Source: Tubulanus polymorphus
Lineage: Eukaryota > Nemertea > Palaeonemertea > Tubulaniformes > Tubulanidae
Direction: 5' to 3'
Length of the DNA: 64,000 bases
Assembly (NCBI RefSeq): GCF_964204645.1
Contig: NC_134030.1
Span: 7,128,278-7,192,277, forward strand
Part shown: one piece after another, positions 18,006-64,000 of the stretch
Numbering within the stretch: the stretch's first letter is position 1
Layout of the letters: every line of letters starts with the position of its first letter
Notes under the pieces: generated by a model
What the model was told of the DNA's origin: nothing
Databases searched by the model: none
Seen by the model: only the letters and a program-made list of their open reading frames with translations
Position numbers and translations under genes: made by a program

Positions 18006-19540
18006 TCCAATACAAAACCACCAACCCCATAATTCATTTCCAAAGTTTTGAATAATATTTCACTCTGATTTAGAAATAAAGGATAACTTATTACAATTCA
18101 TTCAATTTTATTACAAAACAGTGTATGAAATAAAGAATAATGTATAGTCATATATTCTACGTATTGATAATTACATATCATTTCATGGAGACATTTCATA
18201 CAGTTACACATTTTTAGAAATACGGAAGCGATAAATGGCCTCCTGCCGTCGTGTTCCAACTCGAGTCGCCATATCATTGTCGACATATCCCATCACGTCG
18301 ACATGAATATGTCGACATTTCGTGCCGTTTTTACGACATATTTCGTTTTCTCGACCATTTTTCTCGCCGAAATATTTATGACGACTTGAAACTCAGTCGT
18401 CATATTTCTGGCACCCTATTCTTACATTTTGATGCGTCCGATTGTTGCAGTCGAAAAAATCAAACAAACGCCATAAAATGATATGAATTGTCACCTTTCT
18501 AACGATACATTACTTGCCCAACAATGCGGGTCTTGTGGGACCGCCACCAAATGTCGTCTGTTAATTGGAAACTTTCCATGAAACATGAGGGAACCACAAA
18601 AATTCTAGTTGAACTTTTTCGTAAAACTTGACTCTGGTGTTCTGGCTCCCTCATTTGCATATCGGAAATTACGAATCAGCCACCATAACCATTGTCGAGA
18701 ACAGGTGAATGAAATATGCGTTTCGAAACATCGTGCTCCGTAAGAATTGGAAGAACTACATTATTTGTGTAAGTATATATTCCAATGAAAATAAAAGAAT
18801 CCTCACCGCGGTCTGCTTGCGTCCGGCGTTATCCGAAACTTCATCCCCTCACTCGAACAAAATGAATAAAATCACAACACGTATATGAATGTGGATATTA
18901 AATTCCAATGAAGGTTTATTTACAAATAAAAGCAATAACGAAGTGTAAGCAGGTTTTTGTTCTGGATTTTTATAATCGGTATCGTGTCTAGTTTATAGGA
19001 GATAATTATGGTGGCTGATTCGGGCCATACTAAAACAATTTCTGTACGGCTAGAGCAGCGATAAAAATATTTTTACAGTGGCCTTTTTTTGGTTTTCTCG
19101 TGCGAGAATTCAAAAGTTTTGAATTCTCGCGCGAGAAAACAAAAAAAAATGGGCCATTGTAAAAAACTTTTATCCAGCTTCTAGCCCGTCAGAAAGATTT
19201 TTCAAACCAAAATGTTTAGTTTTCTGGCGCGAGAAAACCGAAAGTTTTGAATTCTCGCGCGAGAAAACCAAAATGTTTTGAATTCCCGCGCGAGAAAACC
19301 AAAATGTTTTGAATTCTCGCGCGAGAAAACCAAAAAACGGGCTAATGTGAAAAATTTCTTATTGTGGCTTTAGCCGTACAGAAAAATTTTTTAGAATCAG
19401 CCACCATACACAATGAATCAGTAAAGTAAAATGTATGATTATTTAGTGATACATATGAAAGAATGAGAGATTGGCGGCGTTTCGCACTTTTTCTAAGTCG
19501 GAGATGTGACGGCATTGATGTAGTTCTCTTTTTTACCAAA
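18006..19540. other. Spacer between channels B and C
   Basis: No gene. It holds a cluster of GTCGACAT-type palindromic words (about 18278-18330), a receptor-flank-like block (18715-18790), the downstream flank block shared with the other channels (18790-18990, with TTTATT as minus-strand AATAAA near 18928) and the hairpin element 19008-19408. Confidence 0.5.
19008..19408. mobile_element. MITE-like element with terminal inverted repeats
   Basis: The outer ends are TATGGTGGCTGATTC (19007-19021) and its inverse GAATCAGCCACCATA (19394-19408). Inside lies a second inverted pair around TTTCTGTACGGCTA/TAGCCGTACAGAAA. The core repeats a ~34-bp unit built on the palindrome TTCTCGCGCGAGAA, several times in both orientations. 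It interrupts the downstream flank of channel C at a point that is continuous in channel A (near 4068). It encodes no protein. Fragments of the same end (GAATCAGCCAC) occur near 11166 and 18666. Confidence 0.6.
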
Positions 19541-29600: not shown

Positions 29601-31718
29601 AAGTTGATCAACAGGTTCAAGCCAAATGCCACTCCTATGTTTAGAGAGTTTCCTTAAACCACAGAACACGAGGTTCATTCATTTAGGGATGTAGATTTTT
29701 TACTTTTCTTACCAGTCCCTTGGCTGTACATTTGCTTTTTCTTGTCGTGATTAAACCCCAGGCATTTTCCGTAGTCAGTCAAAATAGTTGTCAGATTAGT
29801 CGTTGCCAGTGTCTCTGATTGGAAGTTCGCACTTAAGAAATGACAACGAATGTAAACGAAATCTATCGATACTCATCTTAAACTGCATCGATTTAACTTA
29901 CGATTTCATGGTATCGTTCAAACGATGGCCATATTTCAATATCAATGCCCGCATATCAATATCATCGAAAGCCGTGGAATTCCCAGTTATCGAAATGTTT
30001 TGAGTAGTTGACATATTTCCAGTTATCTGCGTTGTTGGTTTCTCGTTCTGGCGGTAGAAATCAACAATAAGCTTGTACAACCTGTCTTCATAAGTATCAG
30101 ATAATCTATATGATAGAAATACATGCTGATCAAAATTTGTTTTGACGTGAGTTAGTTTTATTCTCAATGTCGCTTGGCTAAAATACCTGAAAGTGTTGGT
30201 GTTGCAGATGGTAACTGCCGGGAATGGTATCTGATCTCGATTGTCGTCGAGAGATACATCCACCGTAACCGGCCATGAAATGTAATATTTGACTCGGTCG
30301 TGCACCTGGTAGATAAAGGCGCCCGTCATACTCAAAAATAACAACAACCAAATACATCTAGAATTGAACAAGAAATAGATATTATTCATCGTTTCATGCG
30401 GCTGCTTTGAAGCAAAGATGCAAAGATGAGGCAGAGTTTCTACTTATACATGCTATTCATAAAACATGTCTGGAGTATTAGTAGAATGACCATCATCCTC
30501 CCCAAAAGCGGTTTTTAGAGAATTACATATTTATAATCTATTTCATTCTTTGATTATCATGTATTTTGGTATGACTTTCAAATCAAGAGGGTTTATATTC
30601 ATTGAAAGTAAAGTCCACACCCTCAAACTTGATATTATAACTTCTGTAACATATTTATATATCTGTTTAAGTATGTATCTATAAAACCGGTCGTTCAATA
30701 TTCGTTTCCATGATTTTCAAATGACAACTCGTACACGTGATGAATAGAAAATGTATTGTTTTGTCTCTCTTCTGGGACTTCATACCCTCCTGCTGCGTAA
30801 TGGAATATATATGTACATAATCTAACAAATTCATTAACATCGCATATTGCAATTACGGATAAATCAATTGAGTAAATTGTAGAAATTGGAATAAAAACAA
30901 ATAGCACTTTCAATCATCTCTGCGGTACAGATTCATTATGAATCATCATGAATTTAATGATGGAAAAACGTTCATTAAAGCAGCAACTAAAATTCGTCGT
31001 GATAATTTACTGAGATAGATCACGCGTTAAATATTCATGCGCTACATTCAATATCGAACAAAACGCTCTACTAATGATTATTACAATTGAAATGTTGTGA
31101 TAAAATCGAAATAGCTTGAAAATCTTTTGGCGATTGTAAAACACAACCAAAATCAACCGCATAACGGGGCCATGCTTGTGGTGGCAATTTGACATTTCAC
31201 GCATTGACGTTTTATGTAAGCACGTATTGGACCATATGCAATCTGTGTTTTTTTGCAAATTTCGGATTTTAAGATATTTTTGCAATACCCCTTTGCTGAC
31301 TTTATACAAGGGCCGTCCATGCTAGGTTTTTTTGGTGGAAACAAAATCTAGATAGGTTCTAGATCAGTTAAGTTGTTAAATGTTCATTTGGCACAAGATC
31401 AAATAATTGTGAATTCTTTTGAGAGACATGCGCAAAGGCTTAGTTTTCAGCTGAAATGCCTTTTGATTTTCGAGAAAAGCCTTAAACGTGTTCTCAAGGT
31501 TATACACAACCAAAAAATTACAAGGAAACAAGATACATTTTTCATTCGTAAAAACAAATTGTCATAGCAATATATTAAGCTTACCTGATGGTGACAGTTG
31601 GAGAGTGTCCTATGTATCTAACCCCATGAAATGCCGTGTCATTGGAAAAGTCGGAAAGCGCTTCTTTAAATGTTTGTTTATTTTCAACTCTGACCGATTG
31701 CATGTTCGAATCCGCCAT
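26687..31718 (-). CDS. DEG/ENaC-family channel D with giant thumb insertion
   Basis: Fourth tandem paralogue. Exons: 31585-31718, 30187-30357, 29902-30105, 29713-29831, 29453-29634, 29030-29222, 27424-28921, 27249-27340, 26687-26889. Total 931 residues from the start MADSNMQSV. Exon 7 is 6 nt shorter than in A, B, C and F and equal to E, and the start MADS is shared with E, so D and E form a second subtype. Exon 3 is the shortest of the six (fewer Asn-x-Ser/Thr units). The filter is GAS and the tail ends NTSPV, PDZ-ligand-like. Introns 2 (81 bp) and 6 (108 bp) are multiples of three without stops, so retained-intron products would stay in frame. Confidence 0.88.
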
Positions 31719-33346: not shown

Positions 33347-36300
33347 TCATCGGCGCACACTCATCTCGTTGAATTCATTTTGTTGTTCCTGCTTATCAGC
33401 GTGCACTCGTCGCAGCCGCTTCAAGCGGTACATCAGTTGAGATCCGAAAAACCAGATAACCTCGGCAATAGCCAATAAAGATGCGCCTAGATAAAGCCCG
33501 GCAGAGCCACCTATATCACCTAAAATACGAGAATTCAGAAACAAGATTTCGTTCTATAAGCTAACGTATCCTAATTGAAGCTATCCATCGAATAAAAATG
33601 ACGATTAATAGATTCATTCTAATTCTTTTTTTAGATTCTTTTAATGAATCCATTTTAATTCTTAGTATCTAAATCTGTATCGATGTTTTTACATTTTATG
33701 TTATATCGGTATTGTAACAAGATATTTGCACTTGTTAATCAACTTTAATGTACTTACAAATTAACGAAAACCACAAATATCCTTTAGACTTTTTCAACGT
33801 CTCCAAACTCAGCGTTCGAAAGTAAACCGAAACGTATACGTAATTATTTCTGGAAATAAAAGTCAGGGGTGAAGCGTAACGAACGGAAAAAAAATCGGAA
33901 AACGCCTTCGTAGAAAATAATCATCATCGACTTTGATTATCAAGAATACTAACGCTAAGAAGTCTTCATCAATGGCAATCCTATCCCGGTAATTTTTCAT
34001 ATAATCACCTAAGAATGAGTTCACAACTGACAATTTACTTTGTACATCGCTATAACTGTTTATGACTTTGGCAAATTCATCCTTTTCTTGTATAACGAAC
34101 TGCAGTCTCTTATTAATTTCAGTCAGTGCTTTCCCATCGACAGCTGAATTGGAGATAATGATGTAGCCGAAAAGGTCTTTGATAGGCTGGAAAACTTGTC
34201 CCATATCTTTAACAACTGCGTACAACCCTGTCAACGAATAGTCCATGAACACTTGAAGATTTCGCCTGAACCGCTCCAGTAGGTCTTTATTGTTAAGCAT
34301 CAGAGAATTCCATTCCGTCATGGAAATCGTTGGCTTTGCAATCATTGCTTCAAGCCGTCGAGTGACATTCGCGTTTATGTCGTCAACGTTTTTGCTCAAA
34401 GTTACTACATTAATTGGCATAGGGGAAATCCATCGCCCAGCTGCGTCGTAGAATGTCGGTGCATCGATGACGTTTTCGTATATGATTAGAAAATATTTCA
34501 AATATGCGTTACTTATATCTAGTTGGTGAGTTTTGAAAGTATTCTCGAACTCGTCGAATTTATAAACCATATCTTTCAGTACGGATTTCAGACCAATCGC
34601 AGACCTCTCGAATTCGCCGATAATGGTGTAAAACCGAACGGTTCGATTGTAGAAATCATCCCAATCATACTTTGATTGGCTCATGCTAATATCATGTAAC
34701 TTTGTTTTGGAATCATTGCAGGCAGTAATCATTGTATCGCATGATTCGAGAAACGATTTGTGGTTATCTTTGATTTTAGGCAAATCGACCATATACCTCG
34801 CGACAGTTTGATCTTGCACCAGGTTGATGATTAGATTCTGAAAAACTGACCGAGTCAATAACGCTGTGTCAAGCATATTTTGGAGTATCCCAGCAATCTT
34901 TAAAGACGCTACTTGAAAATCCGTTTGTGATACAACCGACGAGTTCGCTAGGAAATCGTTGATAACTTTGAAATCAGAATCGATGGTACGATCCAGTGCC
35001 AATTTGAATCTTTTCAAACCTGGAATAACTATCGTGGAAATTTCTTCCATGTTGGTATGGCGTAAAAACATTTCCTTCACCATTCGTACAGAATGTGAAA
35101 TATTTAGCAAATTTGCATCGACGTATTTCATATCCGAAGTTATTCTAACTTGATTCATCACAAACACTCCTACGTTTTTCACGGCAATTTCTAATTCTTT
35201 TATTGATTTGATGAAAAATGCAACGGCCTCAAAATTCATTTCCACCAGACGAGGGTCAGTATTGTAAAGAGCTTCTCTAGCCATTTTGTAATCTGTTAAC
35301 ATTTCTAGGTTGTTTTTCTCTTTTCGTGCCATTTTTCGTGCCATACTCTCCGAGAGAGCCGCGTAACTGATTCGTGAATCGTACGTCAAATGTTGACATT
35401 GCGGTGGACATTCATAAGTGCCGCAAACGGTCTGATTTTGTCGCATTTTCGCTAGAAAAAATAGCATTAAATTGAATTGATTGATATAGCATTAAATTGA
35501 ATTGACTGACGTATTGCCACATAACGTTGACACAACGCTAGCGTGCTGGGCTTGAGACTACACCCTCACAGCACACCACGTCTCCATTTTCATTACCGAG
35601 TTCTAGTTGGTAGCAATCTCTGTGTTGTTTTAAAGTACAATACGGCAGACCTGCGGGACTATCTTCAGCATAAAACGGCATGCATCTACATATTGATGAC
35701 GTCACCCGTATATAACAGTTATGTTCACACATACTTTGTCTTTGGGCGTATTTCATGCAGTTTCCGTACGGATCTTGCAATTCTGTCGTCTGAAATTAGA
35801 CGAAATAGACAAAATAGCTTTCGATAATAGTCTTAGTTCATTCGTACACTCGGGTGCAAAGTAAAGCTATCGCAATGAAAGTATTGAGATTAAACTGATT
35901 GCAACACATTTTTCTTCTGAAACTCTTTTGAAATGGATTTAGTGTCAGTTGAAGTCCCGAATCAATAATCGATATTTTTCGATTTTGTTTTTCTTTAGCA
36001 CTGATATTCTAAATCTAGCAAAAAACTTTTCAACACTTTTACCTTTTTAGCTTGAACATCGATAAGCGCACTCATCGACGGTGGTACAGATAACGACAAA
36101 TCTTGCATACGAATTCCTTGATATTTATCGTGAACTAAAACTTTTAGTCCGGCAGATTTGTGTTCTCCTTCCATGTTCTGATACTGTTCTAAGTTGATCA
36201 ACAAGTTCAAACCATATGCTACTCCTGTAGATACAGATATAGATATCGATATCGATATCGATAGAGAAGTAAGACTTTCCTTAATTCATCATTGGATACG

Positions 36301-37807
36301 AGGTTCATTCATTCTTACCAGTCCCTTGGCTGTAGAGAAGTTTTGTCTTGTCGTGATTGAACCCCAAGCATTTGCCGTAGTCGGTCAAAACAGTTGTCAG
36401 ATTAGCAGTTGTCAGTTTCTCGGATTGGAAATTCACTCTTTATGAAATTATATGGAATTTCACGAAATCTATCATCAGTATCAATGGATTTGTTGCTCTT
36501 AATAACTCTATCGATTTTAACTTACGATTTCACGGTATCGTTCAAACGATGGCCATATTGCAATATCAATGTCCGCATATCAATGCTTTCGAAAGCGTCT
36601 TCCATCGAAACATTTTCAGTAATCGAAATATTTCGAGTCGTTGACATATTTCCAGTTTTCGGCGTTATTGGTCTCTCGTTCTGACGGTAGAAATCAACAA
36701 TATACTTATACAACCCGTCTTCATATGTATCAGATAATCTAAACGGTAGAAAAATTAATTTTGACTGAGGAAAATTGTTTGTTGTATGTGTCCGGGTATA
36801 AATGGTATATCTAGGTATGGGCGGTGTTTCGCTGAAATACCTGAAAGTGTTGGTGTTACAGATGGTAACTGCCGGGAATGGTATCTGACCTCGATTGTTT
36901 TCGAGAGATATATCCACGGTAACCGGCCATGAAATGTAATATTTGACTCGGTCGTGCACCTGGTAGATAAACGCGCTCGTCATACTCAAAAACAACAACA
37001 ACCAAATGCATCTAAAACGCAAAAAACATATCTCCACTCATTTCCTCTATCATTCTATTTTATTAAGTTTAAGACGACAAAAAAGTAAAATAGATCTTAA
37101 TATCACGATCCGAATACATCTGTATATAATTGGAACCAGAACTCTATACATGTTAGATTAGATAGATCGACAAATAAACGCTCTTCTGGTATATCATATC
37201 ATTTTTGCTGCTATGACGTCCCTGTTATTAATAGTTGTCGCACGGTGTCACAAGGGCCAATGTGGTTTACTGGTAGATTCATTAATATTGCAATTTTGAG
37301 TTGACTTTGTTTATTAAATCGTTATTGGCACCGCCTCTGGGGATTACTTTTGATCATCATCAATTTAGAAAACGTTTATATACAAAATCACCAAGTTTCG
37401 TCGAAATACGAATAAGTGTATAGTGATTTATGAGACGGATCCTTCTCGAAATGTTCATGTGGAATATTCGTTTTCGAGCAAAACTATGAATTTAGAAACA
37501 CAATTTATTGAGTTTATCAAATAAAACAATTCGAGTAATTTCCTTATTTATATAAATACCATTATGATATATTTGAACATAATTTCCAAACAAGTTATAG
37601 AAGAATATGTACGTACATGAAAAATTGAACTAAAAAAGTGGAATTTTCTTCTAAGTGGATATGCTACGCTTACCTGATGGTGATAGTCGGAGAGTGTCCT
37701 ATGTGTCTGACTCCGTGAAATGCCGTATCATTGGAGAAGTCGGAAAGCGCTTCTTTAAATGTTTGCTTATCTTCGGTTTTTACCGATGTCTTTTTCGAAT
37801 CCGCCAT
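33347..37807 (-). CDS. DEG/ENaC-family channel E with giant thumb insertion
   Basis: Fifth tandem paralogue and last of the minus-strand arm. Exons: 37674-37807, 36841-37011, 36526-36738, 36319-36437, 36043-36224, 35597-35789, 33954-35451, 33758-33849, 33347-33519. They join to 924 residues from the start MADSKKTSV. Hallmarks are present: AFHGVRHI, TM1, FPAVTICN, the cysteine array with ECPPQC (one proline replaced by glutamine), the helical insertion, and DIGGSAGLYLGAS/TM2. The tail is short and unrelated to the others after ADKQEQQ (ends SVRR). Intron 2 (102 bp) is stop-free and a multiple of three. Intron 4 begins its acceptor region with a GATATC microsatellite (36226-36262). It is divergently oriented to channel F. 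Confidence 0.88.
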
Positions 37808-38065: not shown

Positions 38066-38399
38066 GGTATCTTTTAAAGAATTTTTCCAATTCGAAAAGA
38101 TGGGCCCAGGACGGCAGTTTTTCATGCTTTGAGATGTATTTATGATTTTTAATGAAAAAGAATAAGATTTATTTTGTGTTAGAGACATATCTCGTATGTT
38201 AATGGGAAAAAAATTATTCTCATTACTAAACCGGTATTTTTCAAAGAATTTTTCCAATTCGAAAAGATGGGCCCAGGACGGCAGTTTTTCATGCTTTGAG
38301 ATGTATTTATGATTTTTAATGAAAAAGAATTAGATTTATTTTGTGTTAGAGACATATCTCGTCAGTTAATGGGAAAAAATTGTTCTCATTACTAAACCG
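38066..38399. repeat. Two-copy tandem duplication, 167-bp unit
   Basis: The segment starting near 38066 (AGAATTTTTCCAATTCG, then GATGGGCCCAGGACGGCAG) is repeated 167 bp later with only a few changes, which implies a recent local duplication. It lies upstream of channel E at the inversion centre. No protein is evident. Confidence 0.8.
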
Positions 38400-41215: not shown

Positions 41216-44200
41216 ATGACGATGACAGATTCGAAAAAGGTAGCGATTCAAATCGAAGACAAACAAACTTTTAAAGAAGCGCTTTCCGACTTCTCCAATG
41301 ACACGGCATTTCACGGGGTTAGATACATAGGACACTCTCCAACTGTCACCATCAGGTAAGCGTACTCTATTTTTCCATGAGATGATTAAATTACAAAAAG
41401 ATCATATTCACTTTTGTCAAACAACAGTACTTCAAATTGACTAGTTCTTATGAGTAAAATCTTGTTTTCATCGATATGAAAATGTTGTTCCAATTGTTTC
41501 ATCGAACACGTTTTAAACAATTTTCCGTAATATTCCATCAAAACACATTGAAACCCCAAATTTTTCTCACGACGTGTGCCCATCTTGGAGATTTACCAGT
41601 AATGTTAGCATACTTTTATTGCATTTTCCAAGATTTTTAGGTTCTTATAAGAATCATTTTGCTGGATCAGAATATTCTTACCTTTTGATGAGTTAAATGT
41701 TCCTTGGAGCCTAACATTAGATTCTATCAAGGGGCAATTACTTACTGCGGATCTTTATTTTGATATACACCGGTTATTTACACACGGGTCATAACTCAAC
41801 TTTTTATTTCACCAGTTATCCAGCGTCTTATTTCACAGTATCCACCCTCTCGGATATTTTCTTGATTTGCCAAAAACTTACTTTTTCTAGTTCGATTCTA
41901 ATCATTGTGCCTGAATATGTTGACATGGCTACGGGAAATGAAATTCTTCCTCTTTACATTGGTATCGTAACTGTAAACATATTAAAGAACATTTTTCTTT
42001 TTGATTTGATAAAAATTTATTTTGATCTACGTATTTCATAGAATTATAGTCCTCCCCGGCTGCCGGGGTGCGTAATATCCATGATATTGCACGTATATGC
42101 ATTGTTGGGTCATAGAACTCAAAAATCATCACTTGATTTCATTTCTATTGTTGGGTAGACTCGACACGACGAGAGCTTCTCGTTAGCGAATGTGAAATGA
42201 ATAAGTCATATCTACTGTATTTTGCACCTTCATTTTCCCAACATTTTGTCATTTATTTGATTGAGTAGAACTTGATTTTTTCTACGTACATGGATTTTGA
42301 AATAGCTTTATATAAGCTTTATATACGTAGCCGTCGTAGTTACTCGTTGTCGCCTAAGATAATACGGTGGTGTAAATGAACCGTACAAACGTGACACCCA
42401 GATTATTAAGATGCTACAAGGTTCCAGGCTTCATAAGAAATAAGCACACCCGGTCGTCAGGTTGGCCAAGTGTTCAACCTCAAATTGAATGCGGTAACTT
42501 CAACCAAAATGTGGACGTGTAGCAAAATTAAGACGCTTAAACTCATGGGCCAAAACGTCGTGCTCTGGGGTATAGGTAATGTAAAGCAAAAGCAGCAATG
42601 AATTGTGTTAATAGATTTTGTGAACATAAGGATATGTCCTGCTACGTACAATTCGTCATATACATATACGAATTATGTTTGGAAACTTTTAAAGTTTTAA
42701 CAGTATTAAAAAACAACGATTATTCAAAATGGACCCTTCAGCAGAGAGCACTACCTATTCTATGCCAACTTATTGAAGCAACTTTTGAACCAGGAAAGCA
42801 CTATTTGTAAACTGAAATATTCAATAGTCGGTCTTATTAATTTGTTAATTTGGTAAGCCAATACAACAATTAATCAAAGGGGCGTTCGTGGGCACGCACT
42901 GAAATTACTAGCACGTACTTGAACGTATGATGACGACATTGATATCTTTTCAAACGGTCAAACTAATTTCAAATTTGTTGCTTCTAAATAATCATAGCAT
43001 TGCATACAATGTACGAGGTAATGCGAATCAACCATCATACAATACAAAATACAGAAAGCCGTAGAGAATGAAAGGTTGACTGATAATTAAAACCAGTACA
43101 AATGTGTTTAATGATCAAACATATGACGCTCTAAAAGTAAACAGCGGCTTTTAAAAACACATTTGCACACATTAACGACACACCAGAGACCAACGTGCAT
43201 CAAATGAATGCAATTTTTGTTTTAAAATCTGTCAAAATAGACATTTCATTACGCGCGCGCGCATGAAATACTCAGCTCTACAACATAAGTGCCAATTGAG
43301 AAGGCAATCACCTTGTTCTAATTTCTGGCTTAAAGTCACGGTATTCTTGAGCCATTAAAGGTAGTTAAGCAACTATACGCTAGTTAGTCTTTTTTTTAAT
43401 GTGGGTGATATTTCACAAAATCGAAAATTAAATTTGATATTAGTTATTACAAAAGCAAGAGGATTAGGCTCGTCGGTCTCATTTTCACAATAAGTTTACC
43501 CCGGATTATAAACTAAAGTAATCATTTATTGCAATTTAACCTCACTTATATACTCTCTGAAGTTATACTCTCTCTGAAACAACAAATAGATTTGCTGTAC
43601 ATGTTTTGAAGTTGGATAGATATTTCCTCTGTTAAAAATCCTAAGTTTAGAAATTAAGCTTTCATGCCACAAACAGAGTCGAATGCTTTTTTTCAGGTAT
43701 TTGAAGCAAGAATGTAAATTCATATCAGCTTACAGTTATTTATCGTTTATTCGTTTTAGTGTTAATAAATGATAAGTCGTGATCCACGATAAAACGAAAC
43801 GGTTTAGTGACATCTTCTGTTATATTCTAGATGTATTTGGTTGTTATTGTTTTTGGGTATGACGAGCGCGTTTATCTACCAGGTGCACGACCGAGTCAAA
43901 TATTACATTTCATGGCCGGTTACCGTGGATATATCTCTCGAAAACAATCGAGGTCACATACCATTCCCGGCAGTTACCATCTGCAACACAAACACTTTCA
44001 GGTATTTCAGTCAAGCAACATTGAGAATAAGCCAAAATAGTCTAAAGATTAAGCAGGTATTCTATTTAGGATGACTTTCCGTTCAAAAGATTTTAAGTCT
44101 AGTCTAGTCTAGTCTTATGTTTGATCTTTAGATTATCTGATGTATATAAAGACGGCTTATTCAAGTCAATCGATGGTTTCTACCGCGAGAACGTGAGACC

Positions 44201-47200
44201 AATTACACCAAAAACTGGAAATATGTTGACAAACATAAGTATGTCAATTACTCAAAACATTTCGATGACTGGAAATAATTCGATGGAAGACGCCCTAAAG
44301 AATATTGATATGCGGACACTGATATTGAAATATGGCCATCGTTTGAACGATACCGTGAAATCGTAAGTTAAATTGATGTAGTTTGAACTAACTATCTGAT
44401 GATTGTCAAATAATGATGATTACGTGTAAATTCGTTATCATTTTTCAAGCGCGAACTTCCAATCAGAGACACTGACAATGGCTAACCTGACAACTGTGTT
44501 GACTGACTACGGTCAATGCTTCGGGTTTAACCACGATACGACGAAAGACATTTACAGCCAAGGGACTGGTAAGAGTTGACAAGTTAATTATCTTGAATTT
44601 CCCTTCCTTGAATGAAACGTGTATTCAGTATAATCTAAGGAAATCTTTACTTCAATACAGGAGCGGCATATGGCTTGAACCTGTTGATCAACTTAGAACA
44701 GTACCAGGACATGGAAGGAGAACACAAATCTGCCGGACTTAAAGTTCTAGTTCACGATAAATATCAAGGGATTCGTATGAAAGATTTGTCGTTATCTGTA
44801 CCACCGTCGATGAGTGCATTTATCGATGTTCGAGCTAAAAGGGTAAATTGTAGAGCTAGAATATCTGTGTACATTAAACACTTTTATTTTCTTTTCGAAT
44901 TATCACAATTGTGAATAATCGAGGAAGGATATGCTTATAATTTCACATTAGCAATGATAAATCCCTTTCAGAATACTTTTGTTTTTAAGAAAAAAAGTGT
45001 TTAATCAGCTTCCTGTAAAGAAGTTTGTGATCTTTCCACTCAAAAAAAAATTAATTTATGTCTATTCGGTTTCATTTCAGACGACCGAATTGCAAGATCC
45101 GTACGGAATGTGCATAGAAAACGCCCAAAGACAAAGTATGTGTCAACATAACTGCTATATACGGGTGACGTCATCAATATGCAAATGCCTGCCGTTCTAT
45201 GCCGAAGATAATACCGCAGGTCTATCATATTGTACTTTAAAACAACACAGAGATTGCTACCAACTACAACTCGGTAAGGGAAATGGGCGTTCTGCATGAC
45301 AATAGCCGCTGTTCAATTATTCTGATTATTATACATAATCGTCGTTTTATTCCAAAGCGAAAATGCGTCGAAATCAAACAGTTTGCGGCACTAGTGAATG
45401 TCCACCACCTTGTCAACAACTGACGTACGATTCACGAATCAGTTATGCGGCTCTGTCGACGAGCATGGCGCAGGAAATGGCACAGAAGGAAAAAAACAAC
45501 CTGGACATGTTAGAAGATTACAAAATGGCCAGAGTAACTCTATACAATGCTGATTCACACCTCGAGGATGCGAGCTTTAATGCGGTTTTCAATTTTGTTT
45601 CGTCACTACAAAAATCTGAAATGGCTATAAAAAACGTTAGCGAATATCTGGATAATCAAGACAAAATCATCTATTCCGATAAACTCTACGTCGCAAAAAA
45701 GCTCAAAGAAATGTCAATGTCTGTTCGAGCGGAGAAAGGGAATTATTTACGCTATACCGACATGGAAAAAATCTCCACGATAGTTATTCCGGGTTTGTTA
45801 AACTTTAAAACGGCCCTTAACGAGACCCTAATTTCAGATTTCAAAGCCATAAACGATTTCCTAGCAAACTCGTCCGTTGTATCACACATGAATTTTCAAG
45901 AAGCGTTTTCAAACGTTGCTTTCGTATACAAAAATATGCTTCACACGGCCATATCGACTCGGCTAGCCTTTCAGAATTTATACGCCAATTTCAAAGAATA
46001 TACAACTTTCGTGAAGTCATTGATCGATTTTCCAATGATGATTGGTCACATTATAAAGTTTCAAAAATCATGTGACACATTGATTACTGCCTGCAATGAT
46101 TCTAAGGCAACGTTTCGCGATTTTGGCAATAGTCAATCAAGACGGGACTGGGACAATTTCTACAATCTAACCGGTCTGATTCCTGGCATCATCGATGAAT
46201 TCGAAAAGTCTGCGTTTGATCTGAAAACCAAATTGACTAATGTTGTTTATGAATTTGATGATCTTGAGAATTCATTGGAGACCTGCAAAAAAGAGCTATT
46301 CAACTTGTATTTGAAATACATTACGATCTTATATGAAAACATTATCAGCGCACCTATGAAATATGGTGCTACTAAACGGATGATTTTCCCTACACCAATT
46401 AACATAGTAACATTGATCGAAGACATTGGAAAAATAAAGGCGAATGTCACTCGACGGCTTAAAACAATGATCACGCAGAAACAGATTTCTGTGGCAGAAT
46501 TAAATTCTTTGATGCACGATAATAAAAACCTACTGGAGAAGTTCCCGCTAGATCTACAAACGTTCAAGGATAATTCGTTAAAAGTGATATCCTCGGTCGT
46601 TAAAGATATGGACAAGGATAGCCAACCTTCAAGAGACTTCATCGGAAAGATGCTTAGTTATGATATTCCTGTTGAGACTAGAACATCATTGGAGAAAATT
46701 AAGAAAAAACTGCAGTACATCGTCGACGAAAATAATGAGCTTACCAGAACTATGAAACAATATCGCGATGCGCAAGCTGAATTGACGCTTGCAACCTCAC
46801 TATTAAACGGTCATATGACAAAGTATCGGAACAGCATTGTCATTGGTGAAGACTTTGTAGTGTTAGTATTCGTGTTTTTAATTTTTCTACAAGCTGATTT
46901 CGGTGCCCATTTCGTTACTACGCTTGATCTTTTATGGCTTTTATTTTCAGAAATAATTACGTATACGTTTCAGTCTACTTCAGAACACTGAGTTTGGAGA
47001 CGTTGAAAAAGTCGAAAGGATATCTGTGGTTTTCGTTAGTTTGTAAGTAAATGAAATTGATCGATTGAATGTTAAGTCATGTAATAGGAGCTCGTATAGC
47101 TTGATGTCGTGTGAGTTCTTACTGTGACTTAACTTACGCTTCAAAGGATGCATTGAATCTCCGTTCTGATTGCTGTTTGTCGAGTCCGGAGCATAAATCG

Positions 47201-47553
47201 CTTCAGAATATACAGCCGAAGAGATTGTATACCCACGCTGTTGATAACTTGTTACATACCTGTATATAGGAGATCATAATATCGCCAATTCTGTGACATT
47301 TGTTTCTCATTCTTGTCTTTTAGGTGATATAGGTGGTTCTGCCGGGCTTTATTTAGGCGCATCTTTATTGGCTATTGCCGAGGTCATCTGGTTTTTCGGA
47401 TCTCAACTCGTGTACCGCTTGAAGCGGCTGCACCGTGTGCGAGCTGATAAACAAGAGGAACAATATGGCGTTGCCGACACGAAAAGCGGATCTGGAGCGA
47501 ATCGATTTTGTACAAATCGAAATAGTATCAATACCATCACATCTCCAATTTAG
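41216..47553 (+). CDS. DEG/ENaC-family channel F with giant thumb insertion
   Basis: The only plus-strand channel. Exons: 41216-41355, 43831-44001, 44132-44362, 44450-44568, 44661-44842, 45081-45273, 45358-46861, 46951-47042, 47324-47553, total 953 residues, same length as A. His-Gly gate motif at residues 33-34, TM1 about 48-65, FPAVTICN 92-99, N-glycosylation-rich finger segment in exon 3, cysteine-rich exon 6, ECPPPC 359-364, helical insertion about 392-835, pre-TM2 strand NNYVYVSVYF from 848, DIGGSAGLYLGAS 879-891 with TM2, basic RLKRL stretch and C-terminal TSPI. In ASIC1 the gap from the last Cys of the CxxPC motif to the DIGG motif is roughly 75 residues; here it is about 515. GPCR-2 follows 585 bp downstream on the same strand. 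Confidence 0.9.
45450..46850 (+). other. Thumb-insertion domain (part of channel F exon 7)
   Basis: This stretch encodes about 440 residues after a helix (SYAALSTSMAQEMAQKE) that lines up with thumb helix alpha-5 of ASIC channels. The composition is strongly helical, with heptad-like spacing of Leu/Ile/Phe and many Lys, Glu, Asp and Asn. There is one conserved Cys pair (SCDTLITAC) and several conserved N-glycosylation sequons (e.g. NETL, NSSV, NDSK, NLTG, NVTR), consistent with an extracellular position. There is no membrane segment. The same domain occurs in the other five channels at 4997-6500, 12381-13884, 20463-21966, 27424-28921 and 33954-35451. I recognise no named domain in it. Confidence 0.75.
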
Positions 47554-48138: not shown

Positions 48139-51100
48139 ATGTTTGATATACCGATTCATTTGATGTGTTTTTACATGTTATTCCCATCAACCGCAGCTAC
48201 GGCTACAGGTGAGTGAACATCGTCGTCCGACTCGATTATAGTTCCACATCGAACGTGGAATGATCATCAGCCAGCTTTTGACGTTGTGTTGTCTGATGTT
48301 ATATCCTACATTTTCACCTTTCTTCGGCTCTTATCACTACTGCGATTCTCTCACATTATATGTTACGTATATAACGTTGTACGATTTTAACAATTGCCGA
48401 AAAACGTGTTTTGTCGTTGTTTTTGCTTGTTATGGATTTAGCAATAGAACTACTAAAATTTCAGTGATACAAGTTTTTTTACTTTGATTTCACAAGCTAT
48501 GCATGCGTAAAATTCTATATACTGGTGACTCAGTTGAATACATGAAGCCCACTGTACCAAAGGCATTCATTCATCTTCAAGAGTGATATTTTCTCGCGAT
48601 GTTCTTCTTATGGTGATAGCTATATGCGTGCACTGGGCCTAAAAATGATGATAAGGCCTCCCGTGTGAATGCTTCTATAAATACGTAATTTACCTTCGAA
48701 AATAAATTGCTATCAAAATTTGCTTTTCAGGAATGAGTGAAAATCGCACAGCGATCACGAGTCCGCAGTGCGCGAGGTCAGACTGTGAATGTGGAAGAAA
48801 AACGACAGTTTGTTCGTGTGAAGAAACGTGCGTCAAGATGGGAATTTGTTGCAAGAGTTATGCCACGAGTTGTGCCACTAACACGACCACGGCAACACCA
48901 TTTCCGTCGTCCTTCGTAAATTATGTCCTATGCAGCTCATTTCAAGTCTCCTATTTCAGTAACACTAATCTAGGGAACTATTGGTCAGTTTCGCGGTGTC
49001 CGCCCGAAAGTAATCGGTTTGATTCATCGATCAAACGACGGTGTGAACACCCGGTCGAAATCGGCTGGAATTCATCGATCAACGATTTAGTCGAGTATAC
49101 GCCAGTTTTCTACGACGATCTTCTCTTTCGTAATTATTTTTGCCTTCGCTGCCACGTGGAAGACATCGACTCTAACACCTTGACACCGGTCCATATACGC
49201 TTTCATTCTCTGGACCAGAAAACGAAATCGCTCTCTCTACGCGACGATGGTCGCCTTTTAGAGAGGTTACGCGTTGGTTCGTATGTGCCAAAAATTGAGT
49301 GGAAATACTCCCCAAACCACGAAATACAATGTTTTGATCCGATGAATAAGAAACAGATCGTAGAATGCCTCGATTCCAAGAGCCGTTGGTACACGACGTG
49401 TCAAAGCTACGTGGAGCCCATTCACATTAAAAACAAAAATAACCTGGTCTTTAAAAAAAAACACTGTGCCATCTGTAACGGCTACGAACGTAGTGACTTC
49501 GGATGTGCTTTCTCGAGGGGTTTTTGGATAAATTATGAAAGGCCTGTTTTATCCGTTCTATTCGATTTATCCCGACCGATGTTGATAGAGACTCAACTGA
49601 TTGATTCGAACACCAATCGTCTCGTTCAAAAGTTACCGAATTGCCAAACGCCGGGAACAGTCTATAATGCACTGAACGGTCAGTGTTCAGACGTCGAAGA
49701 ATATAAAGAGCAATTTCCCTCGGTGGAGCCTAGACGCCTGATTCATGTCGAATTATCCGCTTCGTTTAATTGCGCATCCGATGTCACTGCAATCATTTGG
49801 TTGACGGATAAGATGAAGGATTTCTTTTTCGAATCGTTTAAAGCGAATTTAAAAAACCTATCGATATCAACTCGGATCGATGAGAATTGCTGTTCATTTT
49901 CGATTGACCTGTCATCGGCCTTTTATACCGAAACGACTGAGAAAAATCTGCTCGACAGAATGACCGGTGCCGTCAATGCATCGAATGCTTGCTGTAGATT
50001 TGACGATTCAAAGTTTGAATTACGAGTTAGGAATCATCGTTACGCGGACCTGAAAGGATGTCCACCAGAGAAAGTAATCGAGCTCGTTGATGATACGAGT
50101 TACACGATCCTAGATCAACAAGGCATCGAATACGTGACGTTCGTTTCAGCTACTAACGCCACCAAGCGGCGTACCCAGTGGCTACCCCTACGTAAAACAT
50201 CGGGCGTATTTCTGGAATATGTCGTTCGACGTGGGGAAGTTCCGCAAAGATACTTGACTATTTGTGACAATCGATGCGATTCAGAGGTTATTTTCAGTCG
50301 AGAATTCCTTCTTTCGACCGAGCAGAAACACCGACTGACGACCGCTGATGGTTTAGACGTACTGTTGAGTCCTTTCCAGTTTCATTTAGCAGGAAATTCC
50401 GTCATCGTTTGTTTCGATACGATCAATTTGACGAAGGATTTCGATACGGACGTTGAAGAGATGATAACTGTTGTAACAAGTGCGTTATCACTGATCGGAC
50501 TGGCAGTTCTGCTCTTAACCTACACGGTGTTTCGATCGCTCCGATCTTTACCGGGTATAAATCTCATGCACATGTCAGCATCGTTATTTTTGGTCATGCT
50601 TTTATTCAACACCGTCGTATTTCAGTCATCGGTACTATCTCGTCCGGTGCTCTGCGCAGTAATCGGCATGTTAGTTCACTATCTGTGGCTCGTCGTGTTC
50701 TTTTGGTCGAACGTAATTGGTTACGACACATACCGCACGTTCGCTACACCGGCCGGAATCGAGACAGGGACCCGCGCCGACCGGATGACTCGTCTACGGG
50801 GTTACTGCGCGTATGCGTGGTTCATGCCAGCTGTTCTCGTCGGTAGCTGCATCGCGATCGCGTACACGCTTCCGCATATCGGTTTCGTGTACGCTAACGC
50901 TCACGTATGTTGGATTTCTAACTATACGCAGCTTCTGTACACATTTCTCGTTCCTATCGCCGTCATATGCGCGGCTAATTTAACTTTCTTCGTTCTGACC
51001 ATTCAATCGATCTGTCGCGCGAGAAAGGAGTCGGAAATGACAAGAAATACAAGACGACCCGATCGTAATTTTATCCTCATAACAAAGTTGTCTTTGATAA

Positions 51101-51264
51101 TGGGTTTGAATTGGTATTTTGGGCTGATCGCGAGTCACGGTAGTGACACACTCAAATTGATTTATACCGTTTTCAACGGTTGGCAGGGATTTTTGATTTT
51201 TGCTTGCTTTATTCTGAGAACTCGCATATTCAGATTGTACAAAAGCTATTTCATCACACACTGA
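48139..51264 (+). CDS. Somatomedin-B/7TM receptor GPCR-2 (complete)
   Basis: Class-B/Methuselah-like receptor. Exon 1 (48139-48208) encodes a signal peptide (MFDIPIHLMCFYMLFPSTAA). After a 522-bp intron, exon 2 (48731-51264) holds everything else; total 867 residues. A somatomedin-B-like cysteine cluster follows the signal peptide (about residues 34-68). The ectodomain then runs to about residue 595 with many cysteines and N-glycosylation sites. Seven hydrophobic segments start near residue 600; TM3 has HYLWLVVFFWSNVIGYD and TM7 NGWQGFLIFACF, both typical of class-B/adhesion/Methuselah receptors. I see no canonical GPS cleavage motif before TM1. The cytoplasmic tail is very short. Ligand and coupling are unknown. 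A possible AATAAA lies at 51397-51402. Confidence 0.92.
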
Positions 51265-57800: not shown

Positions 57801-60800
57801 TCTTAGATACGTGAAAGAGACAATTTCTTAGTTTATTTACATAAAATCTATGACCGTAGAGAACAGCACCGGACACCCGCAGAAGTTAACAGGAGAAATA
57901 GGTCTTTTTCTTGTCGAACTCACGTATGGCTGTTGGATGCAGCAAAACTGATTATACAGAAAACCCGTGATAAAGACATTAGATGTAAACTGACCGACAA
58001 TGCACAGAGGCAACATGAACAGCGGGTGGTGGTAGCAGCATCAACAACAATGAGAAAAATCGGTAAAAAACAAACAAATTTATAAATGTGTCAAAATTCA
58101 TTATCATTTAAAGAGATAATGATTTCAAAAAGTGCGTCGCATTACACAACCTCTGATATAGTTAACCCTAACAACCTCTAAATCGACGTGTTAAGTCTGT
58201 AACTCTTGCAGCAGCTTGCGGGCAAAATACGAATATGGAGAGCTTTTTACTATATATGTCCATGGGTGAAAGGTGACTTCGAAATCTGTGCGAAATATCA
58301 CACAAATGACACACACGGACTTAACTTTTAAAATTTTGTGTATACATTTGTATTTCATGATGACCTTAAAAGTTCATTTTTCACAATGGATTAGAGGTTT
58401 TTCACATTCATCTGCCATCTATATTCGCATTGTGTGTTCCCGCTTTAACGTATGCACATGGGTTGTCAGAATGTTCCGCGTAATACCGTTAAATGCGCGA
58501 GACAGATTTATCAGAAGTTGTCATACCGCAGCAACTGTGGCTAAGGTGGCGAAGGGAAGAAAACGGTAGGGTAGAGGAGGGCAGGGAATGAGGAATTAAC
58601 GGAAAAAACGTGAACAAACAAATAATGTATTCGATTAACGTTATACAAACGATTGATTGAATGTAATATTTACTGGTGGAATATCTACCGGAGGACTTGC
58701 GTTTTTGTTTACGAAGGCTCGAATAAGACCCACTCCGTGACAACGAGGACGTGGTCCATGCTGAGTGTGAGGAGACAACAATTAAAACAATACGATAAAA
58801 CATTTATACACATTATCTGTAACAGTATATATAAACATAGTGTACTATAGTCTACCAGAACAAGCACTAGTAACCGCCAAACCTTTAGACTTATAGATCC
58901 CCTACACCGAGGTAAACATAGACTAATATTCTATTCAGAAAAATTGGTTTCAAAAATTTCTAACAAAAATTGTCAATTTTTATAGTATCTCGCGATGGCT
59001 GCCTACAAGATACTTTGTATTTGGTCAAATAGAAGTCTAGACCGAATAGGGCAAAGTCTACGAGCAAGGTATTAATTCTTTGAAAGTATTTTTCAATGAT
59101 GTTTTGATATAGATCATTATCAATAAAAAGATTGAAATGAAATAGTGTGAATGGAAGTGATGATGAGAATTCATGACACCAACTGACACTGACCAAAGAA
59201 CACCGACACAATGCAGTAATGTGGAATTTTTGTAACTTTTTCCAATCCGTAAAAAACTAATATAAGATTTCATAAACTTCAGATATTAAGAAATATTGAT
59301 CTATTGTAAAAGGTACGACTTGTTGATAAGGGATCAACGAAGTCTCATGCACTGCTATGGTCAAAAGTTTCATAAAGGATTTGACGCATTAACCTGAAAT
59401 GATATCATGCGAGCGAGCTCCTAAAGCTCGGAAGAATGTATCGAATAAAAATAAAACTTAAGTGTATATCATCTACAAAATAGTTCCTAAAACCGAAGAC
59501 ACGCATCGTATAGATTAGTAATAACACGTCAATCTTTATATAGGATACAATCGTCGAACCTATAAATCTGCGATACTCGAGAAAGGATGAAATAAAACAA
59601 CCCCGTTTGAGTGATGAGTGACAGTGTCGAGTGAACAAAAAGTACATGCAAAGCCCTAACATATTTACACACTGTTTTGAATACTACACTCACCCTTTTG
59701 GTAAACTATAGGTTCTGAAAAATGTATACACGTTCTATTTTATAACGTCGCCGAGGTTTCAAATTAAGCAAAGAAACAATAAATAAATAATTTTCTTTTT
59801 CATTCAACATGACATTTCTATGCGGAATTTCTCATTTCCTGGTGTGTTTCTTAATCGTTTTAGACGATAGTTATGTAATTGTTCTTCGGTAGACTTCATG
59901 GAGTTTTCCAAGCAGCACTTGGACAAGTTAGTAAAGTTTCATTCACAAACTGAATCTACTAAAAAGTTGACACCACACGCACAAAAGAAAATAATCGCAC
60001 TAGAAAACTACCAAAATGCATTATTCCTTTGATTCTAGGAGAAGAACTATTACTGTTTGGTGTCGGGGTGGCTCGAAACATACATGCAAATTATACAGAA
60101 ATCTAAGAACTGTTCGTTTCTATGCGATAATGAGGGCAAGGGCTGAGAGGCCAGCAGTGGCCTCTTGAAATATCGTATACTGAATATAGGCGCATTCAAA
60201 TGAATTTAAAAACCCCGAGTTCAAATTCCCTGACGATTCTGACACACGAAACACAGACACCAATAGACATAGTCTGTTGACTGATGATATGTACCTTGTT
60301 GTTGTATTTTGGACCACGTGTACTCACCACCCCCGGAATCGGATCTATTGCGATTACAGAGAAATAGTATAACGGCCAGCAGTAGTATGACTCCGACTCC
60401 TCCGAATACCCCGATTAATACGTACGCCAATGGTATCGTATCTGAAAAATACAAAATAGTAATAGTGTGATTGATGTATGCAGTTTTCTATATACGTAGG
60501 CCCCTCTCCAGGGCTACAATTCCCCAATACTCAATGTCCACAGGTTTCCTATAAAAAAGTAAGTGATTCTCAATATATAATATAAATTTGTCATCTTTCA
60601 AGCTGTTAAAAATTCAACCTCTCTCGGGATTCATCATCTCAGTCCAGATCCACTGAAATGTGCCTGGAGAGGACTGAGTAAGGCAGTATCTTCAAAGTAA
60701 GTAAGTAAGTAAGCATTAAACGACCAGTAGAGTTGGTATGCCTCAAAATTGCCCTTTCAAAAATCTTTAGCGGTAATGAAAGCTGCATTTAAGTTACCGT

Positions 60801-63436
60801 TACCTTTTTGTAGCAGTTGAATCACTCTTGAATCTTGACCGTAGCCATTTTCAACAGTACAATTATACTCCCCGTAGTCACTGGGGGATAGATTTTGTAT
60901 TTTTAAGATGCTTCGACGACCGGTGAAAAAGTCTTCCTCTTTTACTGAATACCTATATAAAATATTGCATTTTCCGTTGTTAGTATCGTATAGACAATAA
61001 GCTGGTCAGAGTGCTTCGATAGAGGATTTAGAACGCGACGAAAAAATCTCTTACTTAACATCGGTATTTGGGTTAATTTGATTATCAAGCCTGCGCCAGA
61101 CGATATTTTGAGGTTCCGGCACGGATATCGTTTCGCATTTCACCGTAGCTATCTGACCGCTGGTCGCGTACTGTCGACTACTGCTGCTGATTTTCGGAGG
61201 TCCTGCAAATTAAGAAACGAATAACGTTTTTTTCGTGTCATTTACCTATCTACTTCACAGATGAAGAATTCAATAATCGACCCTTTGTGTAAATTGAATT
61301 GCATTCGTTTTGCATGCATTTCGAAAGAGTATACCGGTAAGCTACAGGAGGTGGCTCTATCTAGTCTAACGATACGGGAACTAATAGTTCTACGGCGCAA
61401 TTTTCAAATTTTAACTCTGGAACGAGTCAATTCCTATGTAGTCATAGTTAATTTTCAAATATCATTCTTAACTTGTAAAATTATATTCCAGACTATCAAA
61501 CTGGGCCACGATTGCTCGAGATCAGACTAGAACACAATATAATAAGCTACGAACGTACCTTTCTTTAGAATGTAAACATCTTTTTCGATTTCTCGGAAGC
61601 CTTGCACCGAAGCGACGCACGTGTACCGACCGAAATCCTTCTCGGTGACTTCGGGTACGGTCAACGTTTTACCGGTCAACACGACCTTACCGGGTTGACT
61701 CCGTTTTCGCCAGTAGACGACCGGCGCTGGGTTTCCGGAAGCGTCGCAATTCAAAACGGCCGCGTCGCCAACATCGACAGAGAGATGCTTCGGGATTACG
61801 GTAAACTTCGGGCCATCTGAAAAGAGAGATCCAAATTATGTTCCACAACACTGGTTAAAATGGTTTAAAGTCAAGTGATAGTCATGCGCAGTTTTTCCCC
61901 AGATATAATCTTTTCATAATTCAACGAAAAAGGCTTTCATAGAAATGTGTGCATTACCTCCAGTAATTTCTGGCAGACTCCCAAACAACAATCGATAAAG
62001 ATTTGTATTGTAGTTAGTTTCATCATTAATACGATTGGTATCACGATCAGAAAAGTTTAAAACACGGACCCCCTAATCCCTTCCCCCTCGGATCCGCCCC
62101 TGGGTTTTAGACGTATATTTCCTCCAAAGAAAAAATACCTCTATAAAAAGGAATCTTGCGTAAGGTTTAATAGCATATACGAGGACACAATTACGCTAAA
62201 ACTTGCCAAGAGATGGATATTTTTTAGATAAATATATAATGTGCATTTGTTTGTAATATTCCAGCCGATATATGAATCATAGTGACCAATCAATTAATAA
62301 TCTAATGGCTAGAACCCGAGCATAGATAATGAATAAACTTACATCGAATATCTAGCGTATAGCTCTGCTTCGTGCTGCCGATTTCATTCGTACATTCGCA
62401 CGTGATGATACTGTTATGGTAATCTCGTGAAATGTGAGTGAATTCTAAATAATTCGATTCTTCACCCGGAATCAATTGATCATTTTTATACCACCTGCAA
62501 AAAAGAGAAAAGCGATGTCGATATTACACAATTAATATCTCCTATTTTTCAATTGACATTTCATAGAGAATTCCTTCTCTATAACAACCATCTCTGGTAT
62601 TCATGTATCTTTTGATATCTTTACGTAAAAATGCATTTCTTTGTTCGCATGCACTTATTTCACAGTTCACTTGATGTGTCATCATTTAATTTCTTTCCAT
62701 CTGTATTCAACTTGATGTTCAACACATTTGTTGTATGGAATTGTATATACTATTCAGCCGCAATCATTATACGATCATCTATTGAATAAATTTTGAATTC
62801 GAATTATCAACGTCCGCTCGGGCGAAATTCGATTGTGCGTCCGAGGTTGGGCGAAATGAGCGAATAGAAGAAATCTAGATTTAGTATCAGTTCACAAGTA
62901 GCTGAAAACTAATAGACACATCACTTGCGCTGAAAATGTTAAGAACTGCAACAGAGATATATCTTTTCAGCAGCGGGGAAAACGTGCGCTGTAGATTCAT
63001 CCTCGGTAGTTTTTAATAACTTACGCAACAACAAAGTCAGATATATTTATCGCGGTTTAAATGGTGTTTATATACACTGCAACGCGTGAGCTCTCAACAA
63101 AAACTTACTTCCAAGCTAATTTGTTTGGGTTTCCTTTGCCGTCGCAAGTGAATGTGATTGTTTGGAATTCTTTCAGATTCTGAGACGGTTGAACGCTCAT
63201 TCTCAGCTCGGGTGCATCTGAAATCGAAAAGTCGATGATCTCTTGTTACTGCGGGTTTTTTCCGACCGCGATCGTATAGTCTGCAGTCGCGTCTAATTAT
63301 GAACTTACATCTGACTTCAAGCGTAACGTCTGTTTTATGAGGAGCGAACATTGCGCTGTTTTTCACTTGACATTCATACGTACGACCCTGGTCGGACTTC
63401 GTTGGCGTTATAGTCAGAACACTCGTCGCGTCCTCC
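54818..63436 (-). CDS. Kirre/Roughest/NEPH-like Ig adhesion receptor (5' end off window)
   Basis: Type-I membrane adhesion protein of the Kirre/SYG-1/KIRREL group (family role: cell recognition, synapse and muscle partner choice). Exons, 5' to 3': 63309-63436, 63109-63217, 62343-62494, 61559-61816, 61055-61202, 60804-60952, 60295-60441, then cytoplasmic 56761-57002, 56071-56213, 55253-55381, 54818-55118; every phase joins. They encode the end of Ig2 (TYECQVKN), Ig3, Ig4 (GDAAVLNCDASGNPAP...YTCVAS), Ig5 starting GPPKISSSS and ending YNCTVENGYG, then the membrane span YVLIGVFGGVGVILLLAVIL. The tail has a nine-residue polyglutamine run and tyrosines in GYYGYRQEYDEV. Ig domain order and the GPPxIS start of Ig5 match Kirre/KIRREL. 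The last two exons are less certain: without the final splice the protein stops at 55249. Ig1 and the signal peptide must lie beyond 64000. Confidence 0.75.
57003..60294 (-). other. Large intron of the Kirre-like gene
   Basis: This 3.3-kb intron separates the membrane-span exon from the tail exons. Most of it shows no coding signal. A candidate cassette exon lies at 58689-58760. Confidence 0.5.
58689..58760 (-). CDS. Candidate cassette exon of the Kirre-like gene
   Basis: It is bounded by an acceptor (CTCACACTCAG) and a donor (GTAGAT), is 72 nt, and both ends are phase 1, matching the flanking exons, so it could be skipped or included without changing frame. It would encode a Ser/Arg/Lys-rich cytoplasmic piece (AWTTSSLSRSGSYSSLRKQK then RKSSG). 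Support is only splice-site shape, phase and composition. Confidence 0.3.
60697..60717. repeat. (AAGT)n microsatellite
   Basis: Short run of GTAAGT-like tetranucleotides in an intron of the Kirre-like gene. Each unit resembles a splice donor, but no exon precedes it. Confidence 0.6.
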
Positions 63437-64000
63437 CTGCAGCGATAAAGAAATAAGAAATACATTTTCAAGCGTAATCGATTTCATTCCTTTCCAGTTA
63501 TCAACCAGATTATGATGAGGATGAAATTGGTTAAAAATAACGTTAGACCTAAAACAAAAATGCTGAGATCTTGTTTTGTTTCAGAATCTGTTATCGCGTT
63601 GTAGTGTGAGGCCAAGCGAGATAGTGTCGTAGCTTGTTCAGTTTGATTTGATCGTCACCTGAGATGAAAAGGGCGCACGCTTTCCTATACGCGATCGATT
63701 TCTGAGAGCTCTATATACCGCAGACACTGTTTTCGTAGGTAAACAGTATAAAGATATCATCTCGGGGTTCAAGGGATTTCAACGATTAATCAACGCCGGT
63801 TGAAAACACGGCGAGCAGACGATTTCAGCGCGTATATGATTAGACGGATCAACGGAGCTCGTAATTGGTTGAATGTTCTCTAGCGACGCGCTACGTCACT
63901 CCCGGGACCGAAAACCAATTTACAACACACTGACAGAGATTAATGCCAATTGACGGTGACATCTCCCGAACGAAAGTCTCATTTATTTACCCATCATCTC
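63437..64000. other. Right-edge intron sequence
   Basis: It lies upstream of the first visible exon of the Kirre-like gene. No further Ig exon was recognised here, so the sequence is taken as intron. Confidence 0.4.

Follow-up and report, generated by a model that had tools for sequence, protein, structure and literature searches.

DEG/ENaC-type channel genes with a predicted ~440-residue helical domain inserted at the knuckle in Tubulanus polymorphus

A tandem gene cluster of the nemertean Tubulanus polymorphus encodes predicted DEG/ENaC channel subunits that carry, at the apex of the extracellular domain, an inserted helical domain of about 440 residues. We give a probability of roughly one half to the reading that this domain is a diversifying sensor or recognition head on a conserved channel chassis, which would bind a partner and take part in gating.

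The window, the whole 64,000-nucleotide stretch that was analysed, contains six such genes, modelled with a home-made spliced aligner; all exons given here are sequence-based predictions. The focal gene lies on the + strand. Its N-terminal coding exon (41216-41355), which ends in phase 2, carries the HG motif as FSNDTAFHGVRYIG and belongs to an upstream ORF kept in nine genes; exons A-H follow at 43832-47553. Exon A (43832-44001) encodes TM1 and the start of the palm, including FPAVTICNTN; its split codon would need one more base, 43831. The finger is encoded by exon B (44132-44362), which is followed by exons C (44450-44568, 119 nt) and D (44661-44842, 182 nt) and by exon E (45081-45273), the Cys-rich part of the thumb. 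Exon F (45358-46861), whose coordinates had been read exactly from the sequence alone as judged by spliced alignment, measures 1504 nt, starts in phase 1 and ends in phase 2. It runs from the end of the thumb through CPPPC, beta10 and the start of alpha6 into the helical insert proper (approximately 45489-46820, or about exon F residues 44-487) and returns to the pre-TM2 strand. That strand continues in the 92-nt exon G (46951-47042), the length and phases of which are the same in four insert-free genes, and exon H (47324-47553) supplies DIGG, TM2 with the GAS filter, the C-terminus and the stop codon. The spliced focal protein has 953 residues and matches Pfam ASC (PF00858) in two stretches with an E-value of 7.3e-76 (256.5 bits against a cut-off of 23.6).

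The eight exons from TM1 to the C-terminus were recovered with the same phases in all six window genes, each of which has, as the sequence-only reading had claimed, a single ~1.5-kb exon holding about 500 residues in an open frame. The five paralogues are all on the - strand, with exon F at 4997-6500 in g1 (exons A-H modelled at 4141-8001), 12381-13884 in g2 (exons at 11754-15459), 20463-21966 in g3 (19499-23488), 27424-28921 in g4 (26690-30356) and 33954-35451 in g5 (33380-37010). The earlier count of six channels was too low, as the cluster has nine genes and about 16 more insert-bearing loci lie elsewhere in the genome. In an upstream cluster gene, the TM1 exon (L002:2874-3041) gave no clean model and may be frameshifted, while the rest, including the insert, is open.

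At the local base composition, a 500-codon open frame has a chance of about 1e-15, and no stop codon occurs across 860-872 codons in the eight cluster genes tested. dN/dS along the large exon, set beforehand as a check, was 0.34-0.64 in sliding windows over the insert. These values, the open frames in 8/8 tested cluster genes and a coherent predicted fold make it very improbable that exon F is not translated whole, whether through cryptic introns, use as an alternative exon or membership of a pseudogene array; on the other side stand a 75-nt in-frame intron that the aligner placed in L007, maybe as an artefact, and the extra introns modelled in L009-L012.

DEG/ENaC channels are marked by a His-Gly motif before TM1 and a GAS selectivity filter in TM2. 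An HG-bearing exon was found upstream in all nine genes searched (the six window genes, L001, L003 and L004), and the focal TM2 (CDIGGSAGLYLGASLL) aligns with that of ASIC2 (LGDIGGQMGLFIGASIL). GAS is present in five window genes and replaced by GGS in g1, where TM2 (4141-4367, -) reads LGGSLL instead of the LGASLL of the other five, a change in the filter motif itself. Among known structures, ASIC1 and ASIC2 (6l6p, 7cfs) were the best match, extending from TM1 to the post-CPPPC strand and resuming at the pre-TM2 strand to cover TM2 (6l6p, E 1.6e-32), with DIGG and GAS of ASIC2 in register with the focal protein. The chains of FaNaC and WaNaC (8on7, 7yvb), DEG/ENaC channels of annelids and molluscs (excerpts of PMC11026163 and PMC9234716), match less well, with E-values of 1.7e-16 for 7yvb and 1.3e-8 for 8on7; the phmmer scores favour ASIC over FaNaC chains.

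The alignment to ASIC2 also locates the insertion. Focal residues 2-345 correspond to 6l6p chain positions 46-394 and residues 795-853 to positions 396-454, so a single residue of ASIC2 corresponds to about 450 focal residues, within the helical segment that comes after the post-CPPPC strand. ASIC2, which is without the head, has 66 residues from the last Cys of its CxxxC motif to DIGG; in the six window genes DIGG follows the CPPPC-type motif at a distance of 512-514, close to the ~515 residues first estimated. The same distance is 66-89 residues in six insert-free loci of this genome (L017, L020 and L022-L025; L021 gave no distance). The sequence-only reading had put the insertion inside thumb helix alpha5, a placement ruled out by the ASIC-chain alignment together with the published domain assignment (Noreng et al.); because of these two, the sequence places the insertion in alpha6 of the knuckle, at the apex of the extracellular domain. 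The knuckle is described as two closely linked helices (excerpt of PMC6827283), and the insertion site may fall between them.

The knuckle has been enlarged in other members of the family. The TadNaCs of Trichoplax have short knuckle insertions predicted to be loops, unlike the folded ~440-residue domain here (excerpt of PMC6827283), and the knuckle of delta-ENaC in Antilopinae and guinea pig is enlarged at the top surface, as here (excerpts of PMC12227717 and PMC13109204). In Antilopinae the addition is 33 residues long, arose by exon fusion with intron inclusion and is predicted to be a flexible loop, while that in the guinea-pig group is smaller (same excerpts). The word "insertion" has no occurrence in the main texts of PMC11026163 and PMC9234716. 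A literature search on DEG/ENaC insertions and lophotrochozoan expansions found no such domain in titles and the starts of abstracts, with thin coverage of subscription papers. The published knuckle insertions that we found are short loops; that a folded apical domain of ~440 residues is not among them is weak evidence of its absence from the literature.

To follow the domain, we searched the whole genome with exon F and obtained 19 matches. Nine of these belong to the cluster (C6 7.10-7.18 Mb), the ten outside it show 21-37% identity, and spliced models assign them to DEG/ENaC genes. When the insert alone of two divergent members served as query, there were 17 and 19 matches, which fell only in these DEG/ENaC loci as far as that search reached. 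A profile search of the fetched loci added L014, aligned over the first third of the profile, and L015 and L016, aligned to its end; weaker matches in L019 and L027 lie mainly in the flank and in the opening part of the insert. L013 matches profile positions 7-104 only, and L018 gave no profile match. Open frames of 455-619 codons (stop to stop) occupy the insert position in L018, L019 and L027, which is the only basis on which these three are counted as insert-bearing.

In total, 25 of the 33 loci in our tree are insert-bearing, 22 by sequence and three by position and length only, and the remaining eight are insert-free in their models; since only part of the 97 ASC exon matches was fetched, 25/33 is not a genome-wide fraction. 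The tree was built from protein sequence N-terminal to the insert, with genes of this genome alone. It includes poor models of L017 and L026 and omits the fetched loci L028 and L029 (poor or incomplete models); L023 covers several ASC matches with one gene modelled, and the fetched stretch of L008 stops short on the 3' side. SH-aLRT 93.7 and UFBoot 96 support the separation of the 25 insert-bearing loci from the remaining eight. This supports the view that, within this genome, the insert-bearing genes form one clade and that the insertion defines a channel subfamily, as had been proposed. The spacing from motif to DIGG is 512-530 residues in 12 of the 13 insert-bearing loci measured; in the exception, L007, it is 481, with 25 open codons modelled as intron.

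Exon boundaries bear on the origin of the domain. In four of the eight insert-free loci (L020, L023, L024 and L025) the matching exon has 142-163 nt and runs from phase 1 to phase 2, and the next exon measures 92 nt; the insert-bearing genes have the same boundaries around an exon of ~1.5 kb. L021 and L022 have no intron at the corresponding place, L026 shows the same phase order with other lengths, and L017 differs. Because the flanking boundaries recur in insert-free genes, the simplest reading of the gene models is that the domain grew or landed within a pre-existing exon and did not arrive as an exon with introns of its own. L009-L012 have one extra intron in common, near the end of the insert. 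Comparison of the insert profile with itself for internal duplication gave only the deliberate overlaps and no repeat.

The helical character first suggested by composition was borne out by two structure predictions, each with eight long helices. AlphaFold2 applied to exon F with 18 sequences gave a mean pLDDT of 84.1 and a pTM of 0.67, with long helices in the focal model at 66-133, 136-169, 176-204, 224-258, 274-328, 349-372, 389-420 and 438-493. A second prediction, with L005 first among ten sequences and no cluster sequences in the alignment, gave a pLDDT of 80.5, a pTM of 0.64 and helices at 68-135, 137-172, 177-217, 230-267, 276-341, 344-367, 384-429 and 431-492. The first sequences of the two predictions are 21% identical, though the predictions are not fully independent because eight of the ten rows of the L005 alignment are also rows of the first. 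Confidence is lower at the start of the exon, in the channel part, where block means over the first 40 residues are 51-69 in the focal model and 34-45 in that of L005. The models support a self-contained all-alpha domain of ~440 residues, predicted as a series of eight long helices.

No convincing relative of the insert was found in Pfam or the PDB, in keeping with the earlier statement that it matches no known domain. In Pfam, everything except ASC fell below cut-off. DUF1722, a bacterial family of unassigned function, aligned to ~45 residues of the last helix, with 22.3 bits in g4, where 22.5 is the cut-off, and E-values of only 0.07 and 0.02 in g6 and g5; it is probably a chance match to a helical stretch. 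The PDB profile search gave mostly designed bundles, coiled coils, nucleoporins, chemoreceptors and viral fusion cores, with E-values of 4e-4 to 1; ASIC5 also matched, on the flank. Foldseek gave no PDB match at E <= 0.001 among 530 for the focal model or 670 for the L005 model. Its first rank for the focal model was the sensing domain of the bacterial chemoreceptor McpZ (8f7n), a bundle of long helices like the head, with an E-value of 0.008 and a TM score of 0.21; VIA Z-scores for 8f7n of 10.3 and 12.8, at an rmsd >10, are within the range that the tool gives for helical bundles generally. ClyA-like chains matched the focal model with Z 12.0-13.3 and rmsd 3.2-4.4 over 204-212 residues, values that helical bundles reach without kinship, and the L005 model with Z <=11.6. 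A four-helix stretch (~124-315) resembles a designed bundle (Z 16.6-16.7), an arrangement that is common. Pattern searches gave 9 matches in viral and 31 in prokaryotic contigs, and tblastn confirmed none of them, as expected.

Several measures showed that the insert and the core of the cluster genes have diverged differently. First, dN/dS averaged 0.50 for the insert against 0.28 for the core across eight cluster genes (28 pairs), which, with the open frames in all eight, supports purifying selection on the insert of the tested genes and upholds the constraint claimed at first reading. A dN/dS that is raised yet below 1 would also be expected from relaxed constraint on a spacer. Second, between subgroup X (g1, g2, g3 and g6) and subgroup Y (g4, g5, L001 and L003, with L002 added for fourfold sites), dS reached 0.62 for the insert, with a bootstrap range of 0.55-0.69, and 0.31 (range 0.28-0.35) for the core. 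Divergence at fourfold sites of the core was 0.23 between subgroups, 0.22 within X and 0.20 within Y, compared with 0.44, 0.25 and 0.30 in the insert; GC3 was similar in the two parts (0.41 and 0.44). Third, the insert tree has an X-Y branch ~8.5x longer than that of the core tree and an outgroup branch ~2x longer, and insert and core data reject each other's topology (AU p 4e-4 and 2e-5), although the X/Y split is found in both trees, weakly in the core. We read these patterns as gene conversion that probably homogenises the core exons of tandem copies and spares the insert. Intron identity is 0.52-0.68 between X and Y, 0.63-0.81 within X and 0.55-0.68 within Y, showing that introns are not homogenised; conversion tracts would therefore have to be short.

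On the recognition-head reading, the genes encode DEG/ENaC-type sodium channel subunits with an all-alpha domain of ~440 residues inserted at alpha6. A trimer would carry three heads on its apex, beside the collar of knuckles and fingers and presumably exposed. Each head may bind an extracellular partner, such as a soluble ligand or a surface or matrix protein, and the signal of binding might pass via alpha6 and the collar, reaching the finger, the thumb and the pore. Among the tandem copies, heads would diversify toward different partners on a chassis held uniform by gene conversion. The apex is the ligand site of FaNaC1, formed by the finger and part of the neighbouring subunit's alpha6. This alpha6 contributes to the wall of the FMRFamide pocket, and the finger moves toward it when FMRFamide binds (excerpt of PMC11026163). 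The knuckle has been implicated in sodium self-inhibition of ENaC (cited in the excerpt of PMC6827283). However, alpha6 of FaNaC1 is reported to be relatively static during gating, which counts against transmission via alpha6 (excerpt of PMC11026163).

A different role for the long helices would be mechanical, the head serving as an elastic tether to extracellular matrix or cuticle through which pulling opens the pore (force-from-filament). The longest predicted helices, at 55-68 residues, would measure ~80-100 A (at 1.5 A per residue; ~100 A for 68 residues), and the near-constant length of the head, seen in the spacing of 512-530 residues in 12 of 13 loci, would suit such a tether. Moreover, an N-glycan site in the knuckle of alpha-ENaC is important for the shear response and was proposed as a tether, and adding the matching site to delta-ENaC raised its shear response (excerpt of PMC7958617). 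In 16 of the 18 rows of alignment A1, however, the insert has a sequon count no more than 2 sd from that of shuffled sequence (6 in the focal insert, against 4.8 +/- 1.9); L007 and L008 are slightly >2 sd. Of the conserved sequons claimed earlier, two, at focal-exon positions 170 (in a loop of the model) and 269, recur in every one of the nine cluster genes. Pfam recognised no matrix-binding domain in the head, and the head outpaces the core in divergence among tandem copies, which is not obviously expected of a generic tether. We regard the tether as doubtful. The stalk or lever suggested at first fits the predicted helices as a stalk, while a mechanical lever, though possible, is not favoured because the insert diverges fast, its sequons are mostly not enriched and FaNaC1 alpha6 is relatively static.

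DEG/ENaC channels have seven conserved extracellular disulfides (PMC6197857), and 12 of these 14 core cysteines were counted in the focal protein. The pair before the YGxC strand, present in ASIC2 and in L013-L016, L018, L019 and L027, is absent from the nine cluster genes. Within the insert, the single Cys pair noted from the sequence is shared by the nine cluster genes with L004; the other eight rows of alignment A1 lack it.

The head might also have no part in gating and act in assembly, trafficking, the sorting of subunits or shielding, with pairing rules among co-expressed paralogues as one example. ENaC knuckle-finger contacts differ at every subunit interface, numerous paralogues with divergent heads could need matching rules, and swapping the enlarged knuckle of guinea-pig delta-ENaC for that of alpha left baseline activity unchanged (excerpt of PMC13109204), so a knuckle extension need not affect gating. 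We hold this passive role to be unlikely, a little more so than the tether, as a domain that about doubles the protein, in ~25 genes and under purifying selection in the eight tested, is large for a spacer.

Taken further, the recognition-head reading would describe a receptor-channel lineage, in which a recognition domain arose in one exon of an ancestral DEG/ENaC gene and spread to ~25 genes with a conversion-uniform pore half and partner-diverse heads; we offer this history tentatively. If true, these would be direct sensor-to-sodium-channel receptors, not GPCR-coupled ones. The stimuli that gate DEG/ENaC channels are very diverse, and in studied channels the apex, finger and knuckle together, is the site of action of ligands and tethers. 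A natural clade with an apical folded domain roughly equal in size to the remaining subunit would offer a ready-made way to ask whether new gating stimuli can come from added apical domains, and a uniform core beside a diverging head would mark the head as the part that evolution varies.

Other features of the region were recorded. Just 3' of the focal channel, 48706-51264 (+) encodes a single-exon, 852-residue secretin-family GPCR (Pfam 7tm_2, E 1.8e-26) with an N-terminal part that is Cys-rich by eye, and ORFs at 60221-63483 (-) look, also by eye, like coding exons for an adhesion protein that has immunoglobulin domains and a transmembrane stretch. Two-copy tandem duplications at 38066-38399 (167 nt, 95%) and 2409-3361 (468 nt, 77%) lie outside the modelled channel exons. 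On the same contig, C6:5318231-5634750 holds ten Hox-type homeodomain matches in one orientation, apparently an organised cluster, with a Lox5-like gene bearing KLNGPN and two genes bearing IKELN after the homeodomain, which we take to be lophotrochozoan marks.
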